Below, in pieces: positions 27,075 to 37,041 of a DNA stretch of 64,000 nucleotides. The stretch comes from Ornithinimicrobium ciconiae (GTDB lineage Bacteria > Actinomycetota > Actinomycetes > Actinomycetales > Dermatophilaceae). The position numbers and the translations under genes are program-made. Under the pieces are notes generated by a model, which had not been told where the DNA came from, made no database searches, and worked only from the letters and a program-made list of their open reading frames with translations. The stretch is from positions 2,046,001 through 2,110,000 of the forward strand of contig NZ_CP041616.1 in assembly GCF_007197575.1 (NCBI RefSeq). The letters are read 5' to 3'. Each line of letters begins with the position of its first letter. Position 1 is the stretch's first letter.

Positions 27075-29042
27075 GTGGAACCCGTCGTCTATCTCGCGGT
27101 GGTCCTGGTCGTCGGGGCGCTGGCTCAGTGGTTTGCCTGGGCGGTCCGGGTGCCCTCGATCCTGGTGCTGCTCGTGGTCGGGTTCCTCGGTGGCATCGTG
27201 GTGAGTCCCGATGAGGTGCTGGGACGCGACGTGCTCTTTGCCGGCGTGACGCTCGCCGTCGGCATCATCCTCTTTGAGGGGAGCATGTCCCTGCGGCTGG
27301 CGCACGTGCGCGATCTCGGCCGGCCGGTGGTGCGGCTGAGCACCGTCACGGTCCTGCTCGCCTGGGCGATGATCACCGCGGCCGGCTGGGTGGTGGGGCT
27401 GGACCTGCAGCTCGCGCTCCTGGTGGGCGCGATCCTGGTGGTCACCGGTCCGACGGTGATCAACCCGATCCTGCGCCAGTTGCGCCCCACCCGCCGGATC
27501 TCCTCGCTGTTGCGCTGGGAGGGCATCGTCGTCGACCCGATCGGGGCGATCCTGGCGGTGCTGGTCTATCAGGCGGTGCTCGTGGGCAACCGGGAGGACG
27601 CCTTTGGCACCGCCCTGCTCACCCTGCTCATCTCGGTCGGGGTGGCGCTTGGCTTCACGGTCGTGCTGGCCGTGCTGATCGAGGTAGTGATGCGCCGCCA
27701 CCTCGTGCCGGACTATCTGCACGGCACCCTCTTCATGGCGGTGGCCGCGGGGGCCCTGGTGGGGTCCAACCTGATCCAGTCGGAGAGTGGCCTGCTCACC
27801 GTGACGGTCCTGGGCATCGTGCTCGGCAACCGCCCGCACCTGCATCTGGAGCACGTCAAGGAGTTCTACGAGCACCTGCAGGTGCTGCTGATCGGGGTGC
27901 TCTTTGTCATCCTGGCCGGGCGGATCTCGCCCGAGCAGGTCCGGGACGTGCTGCCGATGGCGCTGCCCTTTGCGGCGCTGCTCATCCTGGTGGTGCGGCC
28001 GGTCAGCATCTGGCTCGGCCTGATGGGGACGGAGACGACCCGCAAGGAACGCCTGCTGCTGTCCGGCATGGCCCCACGAGGCATCGTCGCCGCGGCCGTG
28101 ACCAGCATCTTCGCCCTGGAGCTGGAGCATGCTGCCGAGACGGCCCAGGGAAGCCGGACCGAGGCCCTCACCAGGCTGGCTCAAGGAGCAGAGTCGATGG
28201 TGCCGTTGGTCTTCGTCACGATCGTGGTCAGCGTCGCTGTCTACGGCCTGGGTGTGGGGCGTCTGGCGGAGCGGTTGGGACTGGCCACGACCAATCCGCA
28301 GGGCGTTGTCTTCGCCGGCTCGCAGACGTGGGTGCGTCAGGCTGCAGGTGCCTTGGGAGAGCTCGGCGTGCCCACGATCCTGGTGAGTCAGGAGTCGAGG
28401 GAGCTGCAGCAGGCCCGGATGGCGGGTGTGCGCACGGAGCGCACCAACATCCTGTCCGACTACGCCATCAACGATCTCGATCTGGCGGGCATCGGCAGTT
28501 TCCTGGCAGCGACGGACGACGATGGCACCAATGGCACCGCGGCACGGGAGTTCACGCACACGCTCGGACGCGCCCACGTCTTTCAGTTGCGTCGGCAGGA
28601 CGCGCGGCCGACGGATGGGGAGGGGAGTGAGAGCAGTGGTGGCGCCGGGGGTGCTGACCGGAAGGCGCCCGCTGGGGGACCGAGGAGTGCTGACACCAGC
28701 GCGCACGGCACGCGCGCCAAGGCGAAGACGCGGGGTGCCAGCACGACGACGGCACGCAGCCAGAGCGCGGACCATGTCTCCGCTCGGGCGCCCTTCCACC
28801 CGGCTCTGACCTACGAGCAGTTGGAGGAGCGGGTTGCGGCGGGGATGAGTGTGCGCCGCACGACGCTGACCGAGGCGTTCACCCTCCAGGACTATCTGGA
28901 GCGCAACCCGGATGCGGTGCTGATGTTCACGCACGACGGCACCAGTGCCTCGGTGCTCACCGAGGACACGGACGTGGCCGAGTCCGGAGTCACTCTGATC
29001 GCGCTTGCGCCCCCACGGGAGGTCCGCCGGAACTCCCAGTGA
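27075..29042 (+). CDS. CPA1-type Na+/H+ antiporter with an RCK-like C-terminal domain
   Basis: 655 residues. About 12 membrane helices occupy residues 1-390, with FAGVTLAVGIILFEGSMSL, VTGPTVINPILRQLRP and EGIVVDPIGAILAVL; the last holds the conserved acidic exchanger residue. A cytosolic part follows: VVFAGSQTWVRQAAGALGEL resembles a TrkA-N/RCK nucleotide-binding unit. After this comes an unusual 50-60 residue Ser/Gly/Ala/Arg-rich linker, then a C-terminal module (LTYEQLEERVAAGMSVRRT). It probably exchanges Na+ or K+ for H+ under ligand control. GTG at 27075 has GGGGAA six bases upstream; the earlier ATG at 26991 directly abuts a TAGCGT -10 box and is unlikely. Confidence 0.82.
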   Translation: MEPVVYLAVVLVVGALAQWFAWAVRVPSILVLLVVGFLGGIVVSPDEVLGRDVLFAGVTLAVGIILFEGSMSLRLAHVRDLGRPVVRLSTVTVLLAWAMITAAGWVVGLDLQLALLVGAILVVTGPTVINPILRQLRPTRRISSLLRWEGIVVDPIGAILAVLVYQAVLVGNREDAFGTALLTLLISVGVALGFTVVLAVLIEVVMRRHLVPDYLHGTLFMAVAAGALVGSNLIQSESGLLTVTVLGIVLGNRPHLHLEHVKEFYEHLQVLLIGVLFVILAGRISPEQVRDVLPMALPFAALLILVVRPVSIWLGLMGTETTRKERLLLSGMAPRGIVAAAVTSIFALELEHAAETAQGSRTEALTRLAQGAESMVPLVFVTIVVSVAVYGLGVGRLAERLGLATTNPQGVVFAGSQTWVRQAAGALGELGVPTILVSQESRELQQARMAGVRTERTNILSDYAINDLDLAGIGSFLAATDDDGTNGTAAREFTHTLGRAHVFQLRRQDARPTDGEGSESSGGAGGADRKAPAGGPRSADTSAHGTRAKAKTRGASTTTARSQSADHVSARAPFHPALTYEQLEERVAAGMSVRRTTLTEAFTLQDYLERNPDAVLMFTHDGTSASVLTEDTDVAESGVTLIALAPPREVRRNSQ

Positions 29043-29062
29043 CGCATGGCTACCCGAACTCC

Positions 29063-29131
29063 TTCTGCTGATGGTCTGCCAGGTGTTCTGCTGATGGTCT
29101 GCCAGGTGTTCTGCTGATGGTCTGCCAGGTG
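29063..29131. repeat. Three perfect tandem copies of a 23-bp unit
   Basis: The unit runs 29063-29085, 29086-29108 and 29109-29131 with no mismatch. Each contains CTGATGGTCTGCCAG, whose TGG..CCA makes a small dyad. The array fills the gap between the converging antiporter and glycerophosphodiesterase genes. Confidence 0.85.
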
Positions 29132-29142
29132 CTGGGTGCGGG

Positions 29143-29919
29143 TCAGCTCCAGAGGCCGCGCTCCTGGAGGACCTTCTTGAGCAGGTCCGCCCGATCCGTG
29201 ACCAGTCCATCGACTCCGAGATCGAGCAGCTGGTGCATCTGCGTTGGGTCGTTGACCGTCCACACGTGCACGAACTTGTCCGCCGCGTGAGCGGCGGCGA
29301 CGGTCGCTGCGGTCACCACGGGGATGCCTTGGTGGCTGACCGGCACCTGTAGGCCATCCGCGTCGCGCAGGGTTGCCGAGACCAGTCTCTGGCCCCTGCC
29401 CCGAGCCAGGGTCGCCAGACGGAACTGTGCCGTCCGGGTCTGCCCGGCGGATGTCACGACCGGCCGGGTGAGCCGACTCAGGGCCGCGCGACGTCGAACG
29501 TCGGAGAAGGACGTGACACACACCCGGTCATGCGCTCTCGCCCGTTCGATGACCCTGACGAGGGGGCCGATTGCCGCCGGAGCCTTGATGTCAATGTTGA
29601 ACCGGGCCGTGGGCCAAGCGTGCAGCATCTGCTCCAACAGCGGGATCTGCTCGGTCCCACCGATCTTCGCTTCAGAGACCTGCGACCACGGCATCCGGGC
29701 TATCTCGCCGGCATGGTCGGTCGTACGGTCCAGAGTCGCGTCGTGAAAGGCCACCAGCACACCGTCGGAGGTCGCGTGGACGTCCGTCTCGAGATACTGA
29801 AAGCCCAGGTCGATGGCTGACTGGAAGGCCTTCATCGAGTTCTCGAGACCGTGCAGGTCGAAACCCCGGTGCGCGAGCGGGATGGGACCCTCGTGCTCGA
29901 GATATGCGGTGTGGCTCAC
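29143..29919 (-). CDS. ugpQ: Glycerophosphodiester phosphodiesterase
   Basis: 258 residues of a GDPD TIM barrel. Visible motifs are AHRGFDLHGLENSMKAF (catalytic His-Arg and Glu), ETDVHATSDGVLVAFHD (metal-binding Glu, Asp and catalytic His), FNIDIKAP, and VHVWTVNDPTQM near the end. It hydrolyses glycerophosphodiesters to glycerol-3-phosphate and an alcohol. No signal peptide is seen, so it is probably cytosolic. GTG at 29919 follows TAACGT (29927-29932) by seven bases; a longer frame from 29943 would read through this promoter. Confidence 0.85.
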   Translation of the reverse strand: MSHTAYLEHEGPIPLAHRGFDLHGLENSMKAFQSAIDLGFQYLETDVHATSDGVLVAFHDATLDRTTDHAGEIARMPWSQVSEAKIGGTEQIPLLEQMLHAWPTARFNIDIKAPAAIGPLVRVIERARAHDRVCVTSFSDVRRRAALSRLTRPVVTSAGQTRTAQFRLATLARGRGQRLVSATLRDADGLQVPVSHQGIPVVTAATVAAAHAADKFVHVWTVNDPTQMHQLLDLGVDGLVTDRADLLKKVLQERGLWS

Positions 29920-29926
29920 ACCGGGC

Positions 29927-29932
29927 ACGTTA
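29927..29932 (-). promoter_or_regulatory. -10 box TAACGT for leaderless GDPD mRNA
   Basis: Minus-strand TAACGT, then seven bases, then the GTG at 29919. Confidence 0.4.
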
Positions 29933-30037
29933 GCCGACGGCACATCCGCGGTGAATGTTGCGCGAACGTGACCTCAGGTCGGGCAAAGGTGGCTACGTTG
30001 GGAGGTACCGCAGGATCACCCTTCGAAGGAGTTCATT

Positions 30038-31444
30038 GTGAAGAGATCTATCGGAATCGTGTAGGCCATCGCCATGGTGCTTGCCCTGGCCGCGTGCGGA
30101 GGCGACACGGCCACCGACACCCCGGCCGAGGATGACACGGCGGCGGAGGACACCAGCGAGGAGCCCCCTGCTGACACCGGCGACGACACCGCCACCGGGG
30201 ACGACGCGCAGGAGACCACCGCCCCGGAGGAGGGCGGTCTGGCACTTCCTGACCTGTCGGGCGAGGAGCTCGAGGTCGCGGCCGTGTGGACCGGCACGGA
30301 GGAGGAGCGGTTCAACCTCGTGCTGGACGCCTTCGAGCAGGAGACCGGCGCCACCATCCAGTACACCTCCACCGGTGACGACATCGCCCCGGTGCTGACA
30401 CCGCGCGTAGCCGGTGGCAACCCGCCGGACGTCGCCATGCTGCCCCAGCCCGGACTGCTCTCGGAGTTCGCTGGCCAGGACGCCCTGCAGCCGCTGACCA
30501 GCGACGTCGAGGCCAACATCGACGCCAACTACGACGCGGTCTGGAAGGACCTCGGCAGCGTCGACGGCGAGCTCTATGGCGTGTGGTTCAAGGCCGCCAA
30601 CAAGTCGACGGTCTGGTATGACGTGGAGGCGCTGGACGCTGCCGGTGTCACCGCGCCGGCGACCTGGGACGACCTGGTGACCGCCTCGCAGACGATCTCC
30701 GACTCCGGCCTGACGCCCTGGTCGATCGCCGGTGCCGACGGCTGGACGCTGACCGACTGGTTCGAGAACGTCTATCTGTCCCAGGCGGGCGCAGAGATGT
30801 ATGACCAGCTGACCAACCACGAGATCCCCTGGACTGACCCCTCGGTCGAGGAGGCCCTCAACACCCTGGCGGAGATCTGGGGCGCGGACGGGTTCGTGGT
30901 CCCCGGCGCCCTCCAGAACGACTTCCCCACCTCGGTGACGACGGTCTTCAGCAGCGGTGATGCCGCGATGGTCTACGAGGGTGACTTCGTAGCCGGCGTG
31001 ATCAGCGGTGAGACCGACGCGGTCGTGGGGGAGGACGCCAACTTCTTCCCGTTCCCGGCTGTGGGTGACGCACCGGCCGTGGTCGGTGGCGGAGACGTCG
31101 CGGTGGCCTTCACCGACACCGAGGCCACGATGGCCCTGATGGCCTACCTCGCCTCCCCGGAGGCGGCCGAGATCTGGGTGGCCGAGGGTGGCTTCACCTC
31201 GCCCAACAAGAGCGTGGACACCTCGCTCTATCCCGATGAGCTGTCGATGGGGATCGCCGAGGGCCTGATCGCGGCGGGCGACGCGTTCCGCTTCGACATG
31301 TCCGACCAGATGCCGTCGGCGTTCGGTGGCACCCCCGGTGCCGGCATGTGGCAGGACCTGACCGACTTCCTGAGTGACCCGACGGACGTCCAGGGCACGA
31401 TGGACAGTCTGGAGGCCAACGCGAGCGAGGCCTACGGGCGCTGA
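30038..31444 (+). pseudogene. Sugar ABC transporter substrate-binding lipoprotein with an in-frame amber codon in the signal peptide
   Basis: A good AAGGAG lies upstream of GTG 30038, which opens MKRSIGIV. Codon 9 (30062-30064) is TAG, and the same frame continues AIAMVLALAAC with the lipobox Cys at codon 20 (30095-30097) and then 448 more codons. The mature part is a family 1 solute-binding protein: EEERFNLVLDAFEQETGA, GNPPDVAMLPQPG, ANKSTVWYDVEALDAAG and a long helical C-terminus, closest in style to alpha-glucoside binding proteins. If translation began at ATG 30074 instead, the signal peptide would have only seven residues before the Cys, with no basic n-region, which is too short. Either the gene is inactivated, or the codon is read through, or the base is a sequencing error. 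The rest of the frame is undamaged, so the change is recent or compensated. Confidence 0.75.
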
Positions 31445-31472
31445 CCTTCGCAGGTGAGCGAACGGCATACGC

Positions 31473-32825
31473 GTGACTGACACCACGACCGGGACGCGGT
31501 CGGGGGCGGGGTCAACCCGCACCCGACCGCGCTCTCGGCCATCTCAGGAGGGGCGCTGGCTGGCCTGGGTCTTCCTGGCCCCCGCGTCGGCCGTGCTGCT
31601 GGCCCTGGTGCTGTGGCCCATCGTCTACTCGATGTGGCGCAGCCTGTTCGACCGCACGGGCAAGTCGTTCATCGGGCTGGGCAACTACCAGCGGATCTTC
31701 ACCGACCCGGACACTTTCACCGCGCTGAAGAACAACCTGATCTGGGTGATCGTCGCGCCGATCCTGGTGACCGTGCTCGGGCTGATCTTTGCGGTGCTGA
31801 CCGAGCGGATCCGGTGGGGCACGGCGTTCAAGCTGGTCGTCTTCATGCCGATGGCGATCTCGTTCCTGGCCGCCGGCATCATCTTCCGGGTGGTCTATGA
31901 GGAGGACCCCAACCGCGGCCTGGCCAACGCCATCGTGACCAGCGTGCATGACATCTTCAACGACTCGTCGCAGTATCCAGGCGCGCGCCCCCGGGACGCC
32001 GGCGCACTGCCTGCCGCAGACGCCGGCGGGTTTGCCTCCGCCGCGCAGGTGGAGCCGGGCACCGTCCTGCAGATCCCGCTCGTCGGCGTGGGAGCCGACA
32101 CGCTCCCGGAGGACCCCACAGTGGCCGCCCCACCCGGGGAGGCTGCGGCGGACACGGTCACCGGCACGGTGTGGTTCGACTTCGTGCGCGGAGGGGGCGG
32201 GACACCCGGTGAGATCGACGACGGAGAGGCGGCGCTGCCTGGCGTCGTGGTCCAGGCGGTCCGCGACGGTGAGGTGGTGGCGGACACCCTGACCGATGAC
32301 AGCGGCCAGTTCACCCTGGAGGGACTCGACTCCGGCGCTGTCCAGATCGTGCTGCCGGCGGAGAACTTCGCCCCACCGTTCCGGGGGGTCTCGTGGCTCG
32401 GCCCCGGACTGGTCACGCCCTCGATCATCACGGCATACGTCTGGATGTGGGCAGGCTTTGCGATGGTCCTCATCGGTGCCGGCCTGTCGTCAATCCCGCG
32501 CGACGCCCTGGAGGCGGCGCGCATCGACGGGGCCAACGAGTGGCAGGTCTTCCGGTTGATCACCGTGCCGCTGCTGGCACCGGTGCTCACGGTGGTCCTC
32601 GTGACGATGATCATCAACGTGCTCAAGATCTTTGACCTGATCTACATCATTGCGCCCGGCTCGTCGGCCCCGGCGGCCAACGTCATCGCGGTGCAGATGT
32701 GGGCTGTGTCGTTCGGCGGCGCACAGGACTTCGGGATGGGCAGTGCGCTCGGCGTCTTCCTCTTCCTGCTCGTCCTGCCGGCAATGCTCTTCAACATCCG
32801 TCGCTTCCGGCAGGAGCAACTATGA
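31473..32825 (+). CDS. Sugar ABC transporter permease (MalF/AglF-like) with an inserted extracytoplasmic domain
   Basis: 450 residues; ordinary relatives have about 300. Membrane segments at about 29-55, 90-110 and 120-142 are followed by an insert of about 160 residues (150-310), then further helices from about 316. The coupling loop EAARIDGANEWQVFRL identifies it as a type I importer permease. In the insert, residues 228-300 (VTGTVWFDF...GVVVQAVRDGEVV...DSGQFTLEGLDSGAVQIVLP, shown with gaps) look like a carboxypeptidase-regulatory or Cna-B beta sandwich. The position, after the third helix on the outer side, resembles the P2 loop of MalF that touches the binding protein. No ATPase gene is nearby, so a shared MsiK-like ATPase is likely. 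Confidence 0.8.
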   Translation: MTDTTTGTRSGAGSTRTRPRSRPSQEGRWLAWVFLAPASAVLLALVLWPIVYSMWRSLFDRTGKSFIGLGNYQRIFTDPDTFTALKNNLIWVIVAPILVTVLGLIFAVLTERIRWGTAFKLVVFMPMAISFLAAGIIFRVVYEEDPNRGLANAIVTSVHDIFNDSSQYPGARPRDAGALPAADAGGFASAAQVEPGTVLQIPLVGVGADTLPEDPTVAAPPGEAAADTVTGTVWFDFVRGGGGTPGEIDDGEAALPGVVVQAVRDGEVVADTLTDDSGQFTLEGLDSGAVQIVLPAENFAPPFRGVSWLGPGLVTPSIITAYVWMWAGFAMVLIGAGLSSIPRDALEAARIDGANEWQVFRLITVPLLAPVLTVVLVTMIINVLKIFDLIYIIAPGSSAPAANVIAVQMWAVSFGGAQDFGMGSALGVFLFLLVLPAMLFNIRRFRQEQL

Positions 32826-33754
32826 GTGTGGCCACCGGCGGCGGTGCCGCCGCACTGCCCGAGGACGTCGACCTCAAGGAGAGGTCGACCCCCGCGGTGC
32901 GCAAACCGAGCGTCGGATCACGTGTCAGCGAGTTCCTGGGCCGGGGCGTGGTCTCGGTCGTGCTGGCCCTGATCGCGGTCTTCTGGCTGATGCCGACGAT
33001 CGGGCTGTTCGTCGCCTCGTTGCGCACGGCGCAGGACAACAACACCACGGGCTGGTGGACGGCGCTGACCCGGCCGGCGCAACTGACCGTTGACAACTAC
33101 CAGAAGATGCTCAACAACGACGGCATGGTCAACGCCTTCTTCAACACGGTCTGGATCACCGTCCCCGCCACCCTGCTCGTGGTGCTACTGGCGTCCCTGG
33201 CGTCCTACGCGTTTGCGTGGATGAAGTTCCCTGGGCGGGACTGGCTGTTTATCGTCATCGTCGGGTTGCTGGTCGTGCCGGTGCAGGTGGCGCTGATCCC
33301 GGTCGCCAACCTCTTCGGTGACGTGGGCATCTATGGCTCACGCATCTCGGTGATCCTGTTCCACGTCGCGTTTGGTCTGCCGTTCGCGGTGTTCCTGCTG
33401 CGCAACTTCTTTGCCGGCATCCCCCTGGAACTGATGGAGGCGGCGCGGCTGGACGGAGCGGGGGAGTGGCGCATCTTCCGCAGCGTCGCCCTGCCGCTCG
33501 GCCTGCCGGCGATCGCCTCGCTGGGGATCTTCCAGTTCCTGTGGGTGTGGAACGACATGCTCGTCGCGCTCGTCTTCGCCGACAGCTCGGCGGCGCCGCT
33601 GACGGTGGCGCTGCAGTCACAGACCAGGCAGTTCGGGTCCAACATCGACGTGCTGGCCACCGGTGCCTTCCTGTCTCTGGTGGTGCCGTTGGTGGTCTTC
33701 TTCTCGTTCCAGCGCTACTTCGAGCAGGGCGTGCTGGCCGGGTCGGTGAAGTAA
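32822..33754 (+). CDS. Sugar ABC transporter permease (MalG/AglG-like)
   Basis: 310 residues with six membrane segments, a cytosolic N-terminal tail of about 40 residues and the coupling loop EAARLDGAGEWRIFRSVALP. It pairs with the upstream permease (ATGA overlap) to form the membrane channel of the importer. FQFLWVWNDMLVALVF near the end is typical of MalG-type subunits. The operon is binding protein, permease, permease; no sugar hydrolase or regulator follows. Confidence 0.86.
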   Translation: MSVATGGGAAALPEDVDLKERSTPAVRKPSVGSRVSEFLGRGVVSVVLALIAVFWLMPTIGLFVASLRTAQDNNTTGWWTALTRPAQLTVDNYQKMLNNDGMVNAFFNTVWITVPATLLVVLLASLASYAFAWMKFPGRDWLFIVIVGLLVVPVQVALIPVANLFGDVGIYGSRISVILFHVAFGLPFAVFLLRNFFAGIPLELMEAARLDGAGEWRIFRSVALPLGLPAIASLGIFQFLWVWNDMLVALVFADSSAAPLTVALQSQTRQFGSNIDVLATGAFLSLVVPLVVFFSFQRYFEQGVLAGSVK

Positions 33755-33773
33755 CTCGAACCCCCTGCCCAAA

Positions 33774-34200
33774 ATGGGTCAGATGTCGCGGAAGGTCTGG
33801 ATGTCGGCGCCGGGGCGCAGGGCGGGCGGGCACATGATTTCGCCGGCGCGCCACTTCGTCGGGCCCTCGACCATGACGCGGTGCGGGTCCATCAGGTGCA
33901 CCTTGGCGCCCAGGGTGGTCAGCTCCGTGAGGTAGATCGCGCGGTTCTCATAGACCCAGTCGTGGATCAGCGTCGAACCCTCCGCCATCGCCGCGATGAT
34001 CGCAAAGAAGGGCAGGTTGTCGATGTTGAGCCCTGGGAAGGGCAGTGGGTGGATCTTGTCGAGGGGGGCCTTGAGCGGGCCCGGAATCGTGCGCAGATCC
34101 ACGAGACGGGTGTGGCCGTTGGCGGAGAGGTACTCCTCGGAGAGTTCGTAGCGCAGACCCATCGTGTCGAGGACAGCCAGCTCGATCTCCATGAACTCGA
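33774..34200 (-). pseudogene. Duplicated 3' fragment of the XRE-murA fusion gene, internally deleted
   Basis: This 427-bp segment matches 35480-36017 of the intact gene, but lacks 111 bp (37 codons, in frame) between the residues RPG and ADIQTFRDI. At the deletion joint the sequence CGCCG is present at both ends in the intact copy, so the loss probably arose by short-homology slippage. A few substitutions separate the copies, and the stop is TGA here against TAA there. The N-terminal two thirds, including the catalytic Cys, are missing, so it cannot be a working enzyme. Confidence 0.85.
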
Positions 34201-34399
34201 GACGCTACCGACCGATGTCGTATGCCGTGACGCCGGGCTTCTCCGACTGAAGCAGAAGGCGACCGCGTCGGTCATCGTGCGCGCTGCCCGCATGCTTTCG
34301 CAGCGCTTGGGTCAGGTGAGCGCCGTCGATGGTCAGGAGTCGACGAGCCTGCTCTGCGCGGCCGGCCAGCGGCACATCCGGACGATGCTACTGGGGTAG
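34201..34399 (+). pseudogene. Unrecognised coding remnant
   Basis: Directly after the murA fragment, a plus-strand frame ending TAG at 34397-34399 keeps strong G/C at third positions and encodes about 65 residues with RAARMLSQRLGQVSAVDG and LLCAAGQRHIRTMLLG. It has no start of its own: the open frame runs back into the antisense of the murA fragment. It looks like the 3' end of a gene cut by the rearrangement. I do not recognise the family. Confidence 0.35.
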
Positions 34400-34432
34400 C
34401 AATTGCGGTCCTGCCCGAGCAGCATGGGGTGT

Positions 34433-34663
34433 ATGAAGGTGAGTGTGAGTCTGAGCGAGGGGGACCTCGCGGCCCTCGACCGGTATGTCGAGCAAGCCGG
34501 CCTCGAGTCGAGGTCAGCTGTCATCCGGCAGGCCATCCGTCGCTTGCAGGACCCACAACTGGAGGCCGCGTATGCCGCCGCCTGGGAGGAGTGGGCTGTC
34601 GCAGGGGATGAAGACGCGTGGGCCGCAGCCTCCTCGGACGGGCTCACGGATGCTGCGCGGTGA
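34433..34663 (+). CDS. MazE-type ribbon-helix-helix antitoxin (toxin partner deleted)
   Basis: 76 residues. KVSVSLSEGDLAALDRYVEQ and LESRSAVIRQAIRRL give a ribbon-helix-helix DNA-binding unit. The tail LEAAYAAAWEEWAVAGDED is the acidic helix that binds a MazF toxin. The overlapping mazF gene downstream is broken, so this antitoxin is now an orphan. No clear promoter or ribosome site is seen at the ATG. Confidence 0.72.
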   Translation: MKVSVSLSEGDLAALDRYVEQAGLESRSAVIRQAIRRLQDPQLEAAYAAAWEEWAVAGDEDAWAAASSDGLTDAAR

Positions 34664-34791
34664 AATCCAAAGCCCAGGCTGAGCAAATGCGTTCGGTCGC
34701 CGTTGGGCAAGTTGGCTCTGCCGTGGGCCGAGTTCCGCCTCGCGTCATGGCTGCGGTCGACGAAGCGCTGCGCCTCCATCTGCATTTGTGA
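34650..34791 (+). pseudogene. Relic of a mazF toxin gene
   Basis: ATG at 34650 overlaps the antitoxin gene and reads MLRGEI, the usual first residues of MazF. The frame then shifts: the frame of the last 40 codons before the TGA at 34789 reads KSKAQAEQMRSVAVGQVGSAV and VMAAVDEALRLHLHL, the usual C-terminus of MazF. About 60 central codons are missing and the two ends are out of frame. The ribonuclease cannot be made. Confidence 0.72.
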
Positions 34792-34827
34792 CCGCGCGAC
34801 GCTCGGCAATTGAGTGCGTCTGGTGAG

Positions 34828-35166
34828 TTACAGATCCATGAGTAGCGCCAGCGTCTCGCGGACCTCGCCGAGGACGACCGGGCCTACGTTTCCTGCGCGC
34901 TCGTGGATGCGCGCCGTGGCGACGGAGCGCACATGTTGGCACTGCGCCGACGAGGGTGCCGCCAGTTGATTTCCCTCGTCGGGGTCGATGATTACCTCGG
35001 CGCTGCTCTGACGGATCGTCCGGGTCAGGGGCACGACTTGAATGACGTTCGGTTCCCCCCTCAGGACCCGACGCGCAGTCACGACGATGGCAGGTCGCCG
35101 AAGTCCCGCCTCACTGCCGGAAGGCATACCGAGATCAAGCTGGACGACATCACCCGGCGTCAGCAT
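34828..35166 (-). CDS. mazF: MazF-type mRNA interferase toxin
   Basis: 112 residues. It starts MLTPGDVVQLDLGMPSGSEA, with RRPAIVVTARRVL carrying the conserved Arg, VIQVVPLTRT carrying the conserved Ser/Thr position, and VRSVATARIHERAGNV plus GEVRETLALLMDL at the C-terminus. This is the SH3-like fold of MazF/PemK toxins, which cut single-stranded RNA at short motifs. It overlaps the antitoxin gene by 17 bp. Unlike the relic 40 bp away on the other strand, it appears complete. Confidence 0.85.
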   Translation of the reverse strand: MLTPGDVVQLDLGMPSGSEAGLRRPAIVVTARRVLRGEPNVIQVVPLTRTIRQSSAEVIIDPDEGNQLAAPSSAQCQHVRSVATARIHERAGNVGPVVLGEVRETLALLMDL

Positions 35167-35347
35167 CCAGCCACTCAGCCTCTTCGTCGGTCAGGGCCGC
35201 CGCAAGGTCTCGAGCCATGGCGTCCTGGCGTAACGCTCGGATCGCTTTGCCCACGGTCTGGTCAATCGTCTCGTGCCGCTGGGCCGCCAGTCGAGTCACC
35301 CGCGCGTGTGTGTCCCGACTGATACGGATCGTCGTCGTTTCGCCCAT
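35150..35347 (-). CDS. mazE: MazE-type antitoxin
   Basis: 65 residues. TTTIRISRDTHARVTRLAAQ and ETIDQTVGKAIRALRQD form a ribbon-helix-helix domain; DLAAALTDEEAEWLDADAG is the acidic toxin-binding tail. ATG at 35347 is chosen because TATGCT (35354-35359) sits six bases upstream, giving a leaderless mRNA. A perfect palindrome adjoins that box and is the probable autoregulatory operator. Confidence 0.8.
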   Translation of the reverse strand: MGETTTIRISRDTHARVTRLAAQRHETIDQTVGKAIRALRQDAMARDLAAALTDEEAEWLDADAG

Positions 35348-35353
35348 CTCACC

Positions 35354-35359
35354 AGCATA
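35354..35359 (-). promoter_or_regulatory. -10 box TATGCT for leaderless mazEF mRNA
   Basis: On the minus strand TATGCT is followed by six bases and the ATG at 35347. Confidence 0.5.
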
Positions 35360-35390
35360 GTCGGTGTAGACGAATTCGTCTACACCGACT
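35359..35390. promoter_or_regulatory. Perfect 32-bp palindrome, probable MazE operator
   Basis: Each half-site reads AGTCGGTGTAGACGAA towards the dyad centre (GAATTC), with no mismatch over 16 bp. It begins at the upstream edge of the mazE -10 box and covers the spacer and -35 region, where a repressor would block transcription. Confidence 0.75.
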
Positions 35391-35412
35391 GGCGCTGCCC
35401 AGAACATCCATC

Positions 35413-35478
35413 ATGAGCAACATCACCATCGAGGGGAACCTGGCCGACGAGGTGGAACTGCGGCTCACGCCCCCCGAG
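35413..35478 (+). pseudogene. Stub of an ssb-like gene
   Basis: ATG 35413 opens MSNITIEGNLADEVELRLTP, which resembles the first beta strand of bacterial single-stranded DNA-binding proteins. After about 22 codons the sequence passes, at about 35479, into the 3' flank of the murA fusion gene on the other strand. Only the N-terminus remains. The match is short, so the identity is tentative. Confidence 0.45.
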
Positions 35479-35484
35479 CATGGG

Positions 35485-37014
35485 TTAGATGTCGCGGAAG
35501 GTCTGGATGTCGGCGCCGAGGTTGTTGAGGCGGGTGGCCAGGTCCTCGTAGCCGCGGTGGATGACGTAGACGTTGCGGAGCACGGACTCGCCGGGAGCGG
35601 CGAGCATCGCGAGCAGGATCACGACGCCGGGGCGCAGGGCCGGCGGGCACATGATCTCCCCGGCGCGCCACTTCGTCGGGCCCTCGACCATGACGCGGTG
35701 CGGGTCCATCAGGTGCACCTTGGCGCCGAGGGTGGTCAGCTCCGTGAGGTAGATCGCGCGGTTCTCATAGACCCAGTCGTGGATCAGCGTCGAACCCTCC
35801 GCCATCGCGGCGATGATCGCGAAGAAGGGCAGGTTGTCGATGTTGAGACCGGGGAAAGGCAGTGGGTGGATCTTGTCGAGGGGGGCCTTGAGCGGGCCCG
35901 GAATCGTGCGCAGATCGACGAGACGGGTGTGGCCGTTGGCGGAGAGGTACTCCTCGGAGAGTTCGTAGCGCAGACCCATCGTGTCGAGGACAGCCAGCTC
36001 GATCTCCATGAACTCGATCGGGACTCGCTTGATCGTGATCTCGCTTCCGGTGACCACGCCGGCGGCGAGCAGGCTCATCGCCTCGATGGGGTCCTCGGAG
36101 GGTGAGTACTCGATGTCCTGGTTGATCGACTCGACACCGGTGACGGTGAGCGTGGTGGTGCCGAGCCCCTCGATCGTGACACCCAACTGCTGGAGGAAGA
36201 CGCACAGGTCCTGGACCATGTAGTTGGAGGAGGCGTTGCGGATCACGGTGGTGCCTGGGTGGCGGGCGGCCGCGAGCAGGACGTTCTCAGTCACGGTGTC
36301 GCCGCGCTCGGTCAGCACGATCGGACGCTGTGGTGCCTTCTCACGGTCGATGGTCACGTGATAGCTGCCCATCGTGGCGGTCACGTCAATGCCGAAGTGC
36401 CGCAGGGCGACCATGTGCGGCTCAACCGTGCGGGTGCCCAGGTCGCAGCCGCCGGCATAGGGGAGTTCGAACTCGTCCAGCTCGTGCATGAGCGGACCGA
36501 GGAACATGATGATGGTGCGGGTGCGGCGTGCGGCTGCCTCGTCGATCGAGCCCAGGTTGATGGTGGCCGGGGGGTTGATCTCCAGGTCGGATGAGTCCGG
36601 GAGCCAACGGATCTTGAAACCGATGCTGGTGAGCACCTCGACGATGCGGTTGACCTCCTCGATGCGGGCCAGGTTGCGCAGGGTGGTGCGGCCCTTGTTG
36701 AGCAGCGCGGCGCACAGCAGCGCGACGGCGGCATTCTTGGAGGTGCGCACGTCGATCTCGCCCGAGAGACGCTTGCCGCCGTTGATCCGCAGGTTCTGGG
36801 GCAGTGAGCTGCCCACGGAGACGATCTCGGAGTCAAGGCTCTCGCCGATGCGCGCCAGCATCTCCAGGGAAAGGTTCTGCTTGCCCTGCTCGATGCGGGC
36901 AACCGCGGACTGACTGGTGTTGAGCAGAGCCGCCAGCTCGGCCTGGGTGAGGTCCTTGTGGCGGCGGGCGTCACGGATCAGGGCGCCGATACGGGACAGG
37001 TAGCTCTCAGTCAT
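35485..37014 (-). CDS. XRE helix-turn-helix domain fused to a MurA-like enolpyruvyl transferase
   Basis: 509 residues. Residues 7-62 are an XRE-type helix-turn-helix (LTQAELAALLNTSQSAVARI). Residues from about 75 form the two-domain EPSP-synthase/MurA fold: SGEIDVRTSKNAAVAL (Lys93-Asn94, as in the substrate-binding KN of MurA), RTRTIIMFLGPLMHE, and AGGCDLGTRTVEPHM with Cys190 at the place of the catalytic Cys of MurA. MurA transfers enolpyruvate from PEP to UDP-GlcNAc; because the key residues are kept, this protein may be active or may sense the same ligands. The DNA-binding domain suggests a regulator controlled by peptidoglycan precursors. ATG 37014 lies six bases after TACAGT. Confidence 0.85.
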   Translation of the reverse strand: MTESYLSRIGALIRDARRHKDLTQAELAALLNTSQSAVARIEQGKQNLSLEMLARIGESLDSEIVSVGSSLPQNLRINGGKRLSGEIDVRTSKNAAVALLCAALLNKGRTTLRNLARIEEVNRIVEVLTSIGFKIRWLPDSSDLEINPPATINLGSIDEAAARRTRTIIMFLGPLMHELDEFELPYAGGCDLGTRTVEPHMVALRHFGIDVTATMGSYHVTIDREKAPQRPIVLTERGDTVTENVLLAAARHPGTTVIRNASSNYMVQDLCVFLQQLGVTIEGLGTTTLTVTGVESINQDIEYSPSEDPIEAMSLLAAGVVTGSEITIKRVPIEFMEIELAVLDTMGLRYELSEEYLSANGHTRLVDLRTIPGPLKAPLDKIHPLPFPGLNIDNLPFFAIIAAMAEGSTLIHDWVYENRAIYLTELTTLGAKVHLMDPHRVMVEGPTKWRAGEIMCPPALRPGVVILLAMLAAPGESVLRNVYVIHRGYEDLATRLNNLGADIQTFRDI

Positions 37015-37020
37015 CCGACC

Positions 37021-37041
37021 ACTGTAGATCACATATGAGAT
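37021..37041 (-). promoter_or_regulatory. Leaderless promoter and near-palindrome before the XRE-murA gene
   Basis: TACAGT (37021-37026, minus strand) is six bases before the ATG. Immediately upstream, ATCACATATGAGAT (37028-37041) is a near-perfect dyad centred on CATATG. An XRE dimer binding here would autoregulate the gene. Confidence 0.45.

Follow-up and report, generated by a model that had tools for sequence, protein, structure and literature searches.

A premature stop codon in the signal peptide of a sugar-binding lipoprotein gene of Ornithinimicrobium ciconiae, probably a recent null allele

Recent strain-specific nonsense pseudogenes of nutrient transporters are a known kind of allele, in which one premature stop interrupts a frame that still bears constraint and close relatives keep intact alleles. 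A second point of reference is the CUT1-type sugar ABC transporters, whose binding lipoproteins combine an SBP_bac_1 (PF01547) domain with a lipobox and are encoded beside two permease genes. A third is programmed UAG readthrough or reassignment, where a single in-frame UAG is followed by a long open frame. The locus studied here lies in a stretch of 64,000 nucleotides of Ornithinimicrobium ciconiae (the window; NZ_CP041616.1, positions 2,046,001 to 2,110,000) and resembles each of these in part, as it encodes a sugar-binding protein and two permeases and has an in-frame TAG within the signal peptide of the binding-protein gene. We found no direct parallel in the available portions of the literature on signal peptides interrupted by premature or amber stops, on readthrough, on young nonsense pseudogenes, on reinitiation or on lipoprotein signal peptides. 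The features of the locus are listed below, with G014 denoting the sister species and P0001 the best database match.

30026..30031, plus strand: AAGGAG, the Shine-Dalgarno sequence of the binding-protein gene, seen in the sequence and the same in G014
30038..30061, plus strand: GTG start (30038) and first eight codons, MKRSIGIV, forming the n-region of the signal peptide; the start is common to relatives
30062..30064, plus strand: in-frame TAG at codon 9, seen in the sequence; serine in the homologues P0001 and G014
30074..31444, plus strand: remainder of the sugar-binding protein frame from ATG 30074, the only nearby ATG; an ORF of 456 codons plus TGA with the SBP_bac_1 domain
30086..30097, plus strand: lipobox LAAC
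31473..32825, plus strand: first permease gene, intact (PF00528, E 2.9e-17), 96.4% identical to G014
32822..33754, plus strand: second permease gene, intact (PF00528, E 6.9e-17; dN/dS 0.085), its start overlapping the preceding stop

Read from GTG 30038, the signal peptide is interrupted by the TAG at codon 9. The same frame then reads AIAMVLALAAC, with the lipobox cysteine at 30095-30097, and runs open to the TGA at 31442-31444. It matches SBP_bac_1 with an E-value of 5.6e-28 (99.3 bits against a cut-off of 26), and homologues of the protein are labelled alpha-glucoside or ABC-type sugar transport. Judged by this match and by the relatives that are open through the stop position, the frame is more than a chance ORF. 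The sister species shares all 35 bases from AAGGAG through the second base of codon 8, and this agreement speaks for GTG 30038 being the conserved start. Both downstream permease genes carry a BPD_transp_1 domain without an internal stop, and a permease from Ornithinimicrobium cryptoxanthini is 96% identical to its counterpart here. The arrangement is as an earlier note on this DNA had described it, from the Shine-Dalgarno sequence and start through the TAG, the lipobox and the open frame to the two intact permease genes. Residues 245-301 of the first permease (31473-32825) resemble CarboxypepD_reg/SdrD_B domains at scores below the Pfam cut-offs, and PF13620 is listed for many homologues of this permease. 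No Rfam family scored above threshold within 29000-34500.

P0001 is a predicted protein of 468 residues and represents a cluster of 6 member sequences with 5 contigs, the longest of 8,389 bases. Of its 468 positions, 465 agree with the window frame. The three exceptions are the start residue, V or M depending on translation; codon 9, where the window has a stop and P0001 has Ser; and codon 11, where the window has Ile and P0001 has Thr. From ATG 30074 on, all 456 residues are identical. In the sister species, the closest relative compared (chromosome of 3,771,308 bases), the DNA is 93.2% identical over 1,545 bases, the binding protein is 95% identical, and codon 9 is again serine. We further compared 81 relative loci as DNA, namely G014 and 80 others, the best-ranked of 192 that encode a relative. 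A signal peptide with lipobox is visible in 80 of them (L037, where it is cut off by a contig end, was excluded), and all 80 are free of stops within it. The TAG is therefore a premature stop at a place where close relatives have a sense codon. As P0001 and G014 both have serine there, the lost codon was serine; a leucine (TTG) ancestor, as suggested earlier, is not borne out, and a leucine-to-stop origin was rejected. A point against the null-allele reading given below is that the change is more than one simple point mutation: P0001 differs at codon 11 as well as at codon 9, and the first differences from G014 inside the gene, at 30061, 30063 and 30069, place three bases within nine.

A copied patch was considered as the source of this clustered change and set aside. 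The 11-mer at 30060-30070 has an exact direct copy at 29348, about 710 bases upstream, and its 10-mer core has an inverted copy at 31138, about 1,080 bases downstream. The flanks of these copies are unmatched, the G014 region lacks the direct copy, and the k-mers were picked post hoc, so we make no claim from them. Across the window as background, a direct copy within 720 bases is seen for 0.8% of 11-mers and an inverted copy within 1,100 bases for 1.1% of 10-mers; 0.07% of 10-mers have both kinds within 1,100 bases. The 5' stretch of the gene had no match among the viral contigs scanned.

Relative to the sister species, the binding protein has a dN/dS of 0.104, counted from codon 21 on, and the first and second permeases have 0.093 and 0.085; the binding-protein gene is thus under strong purifying selection. 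Past codon 11, no residue has changed relative to P0001. Taken together, the strong selection and this identity suggest that the break is very young and that the gene was under constraint until very recently. As a further point against a null allele, the gene has no sign of decay besides the TAG, so that the loss of function is predicted from a single codon. At synonymous sites the three operon genes (30000-33754) diverge from G014 by 0.22-0.24, against 0.39-0.88 for four other genes compared, a pattern that would fit a recent exchange of the operon between the two species. When G014 frames were followed through the aligned stretch of the window, 13 of 46 hit stops, including those of the binding-protein gene and a murA fragment; some of the 13 have over-extended starts or are likely spurious, and the count cannot serve as an error rate for the genome.

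In the neighbouring region, the 3' part of murA is duplicated over about 340 bases or more (within 33774-35521 and onward), with 33799-34098 being 96% identical to 35616-35915 and 33774-33815 being 95% identical to 35480-35521. The duplication comes with an insert that is absent from G014 and carries two genes.

34403..34663, plus strand: ribbon-helix-helix gene, inside the insert
34828..35166, minus strand: PemK/MazF-like toxin gene, inside the insert
35488..37032: intact murA

The interrupted signal peptide is best explained by a recent nonsense null allele of the sugar-binding lipoprotein gene, a reading that we consider probable from sequence comparison, and an ordinary recent loss-of-function mutation is likely rather than a regulatory switch. 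In the mechanism that we propose, the TAG at codon 9 would be a very recent nonsense mutation that leaves the ABC transporter without its binding protein. Ribosomes starting at GTG 30038 would release after eight residues; a fraction of them may resume at ATG 30074, which lies nine bases past the stop. The restart product, beginning MVLALAAC, would have no charged n-region and little hydrophobic core; it would stay in the cytoplasm, and the permeases would not be fed. The permeases may still be made, yet they would have no partner to serve them if no other sugar-binding protein of the genome steps in. When the genome (a single contig of 4,092,907 bases) was searched with the N-terminal 86 codons, no second intact copy emerged, and the match next in rank was 44% identical. 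Eight places in the genome match SBP_bac_1, counting this gene and one place that is matched in two pieces; the seven other loci make the loss of one system plausible. The available part of PMC9973731 describes strain JCM 33221T as coming from bird faeces, and its Table 1 gives positive results for maltose, fructose and galactose and a negative one for glucose, results that are not tied to this transporter.

The earlier note had left four options side by side. A fresh null mutation gains most from the intact P0001 and the purifying selection, whereas a readthrough switch finds no support; a restart is possible but predicts a product without a usable signal peptide, and a base-calling error is a lesser possibility. 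The last of these is the main rival to the null allele, ahead of leaky readthrough and then of a functional restart product. It holds that sequencing or assembly introduced the TAG into the reference and that the living strain has an intact gene, which we regard as unlikely. Beyond the start residue, codons 9 and 11 are the only residue differences from P0001, and two random differences fall within two codons of each other with a chance of 0.0085; packed differences of this kind can mark a local assembly fault. P0001 is of unproven origin as an allele of another strain and could be a second reading of the same strain. The O. ciconiae genome is nevertheless listed at 349x coverage as one contig in Table 1 of PMC9973731, and close-packed differences occur elsewhere in the gene as well, with at least three differences from G014 in 33 of its 1,399 nine-base windows. 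As such packing is not rare against G014, the cluster at 30061, 30063 and 30069 is by itself weak evidence.

Leaky expression, in which UAG is misread often enough to yield a little full-length lipoprotein and the transporter works at a low level, we regard as decidedly improbable. The frame is open past the TAG and the permeases are intact, and TAG readthrough is measurable in E. coli reporters according to the available part of one study (PMC10959953). Against it, we found 45 tRNA genes with RF00005 and one tRNA-Sec (anticodon tca), 46 in all; Table 1 of PMC9973731 also gives 46 for O. ciconiae JCM 33221T. None of the 46 has the anticodon CTA, although an unrecognised odd tRNA could be missed, and the amber suppressor tRNA that the earlier note had proposed looking for in the genome was accordingly rejected. 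The tRNA-Sec gene lies outside the window, at G000:C1:2022554-2022645. Release factor 1 is present (TIGR00019, 450.9 bits against a cut-off of 423.25), and TAG also terminates 2 of 21 hand-picked window genes. The RNA of 30015-30100 folds no better than its shuffles as far as local structure is concerned (z 0.94; 162 of 200 shuffles fold as well). The stop itself is not conserved, being absent from all 80 loci with a visible signal peptide, which together with the tRNA set and RF1 argues against an amber switch. The lack of a CTA tRNA, the presence of RF1, the use of TAG as a terminator and the lack of RNA structure or an Rfam match make dedicated or structure-driven readthrough unlikely; basal misreading of UAG is possible.

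Weaker still is the proposal that translation terminates at codon 9 and restarts at ATG 30074 to give a functional cytoplasmic binding protein under an eight-codon leader, which we consider highly improbable. Reinitiation after termination has been described in prokaryotes, as stated in the available part of PMC5972666. Here the ATG is nine bases past the stop, and AGG at 30063-30065, the only possible Shine-Dalgarno core before it, ends eight bases before the ATG. The predicted product MVLALAAC has no K or R before its hydrophobic stretch and its cysteine is residue 8, so that a restart, possible as an event, would yield a protein with no charged n-region, with the bulk of its hydrophobic core missing and with no usable signal peptide. 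The lipobox cysteine is at residue 18 or later in 103 of the 120 listed homologues, at 14-15 in seven and at 7-8 in five, and five are without a motif match; among the 29 closest listed homologues, 25 have it at residue 18-25. The five with the cysteine at 7 or 8 (P0004, P0006, P0056, P0078 and P0095) are predicted from internal starts and form the chief exception to the overall picture. They are predicted proteins and may be start choices of the gene caller or further broken signal peptides. By contrast, all 80 DNA loci with a visible signal peptide are open through a K/R-bearing leader, and the adjoining permeases imply an exported partner. An internal start as the native start was rejected for these 80 of the 81 DNA relatives on the same ground. 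Five of the 80 have no ATG, GTG or TTG 15 to 40 codons before the cysteine, and in those five the K/R-rich leader is open for at least 40 codons. That one clustered mutation converted the export signal into an eight-codon leader and restart site, shifting the protein from surface to cytoplasm with a trace of surface form made by UAG misreading, and so created a leaky, easily reversible off-state of the transporter, would be just as hard to credit.

If the null allele is true, the locus is a small, clean case of a transporter just switched off, in an operon that still bears its old constraint. It is also a warning for annotation, as the gene in the reference genome is either broken or misread and ATG 30074 should not be taken as a real start. 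The case has no bearing on the genetic code or recoding. As in programmed UAG readthrough and reassignment, one UAG lies in a frame that stays open for long after it, but here the stop is not conserved and there is no dedicated tRNA or local structure. It has the domain, the lipobox and the two adjoining permeases of the CUT1-type binding lipoproteins, but its signal peptide is broken by the TAG. The proposed null allele resembles the recent nonsense pseudogenes of nutrient transporters but differs from them in that the stop lies inside a signal peptide, an ATG follows just after it, and the closest intact protein departs from it at two neighbouring codons.
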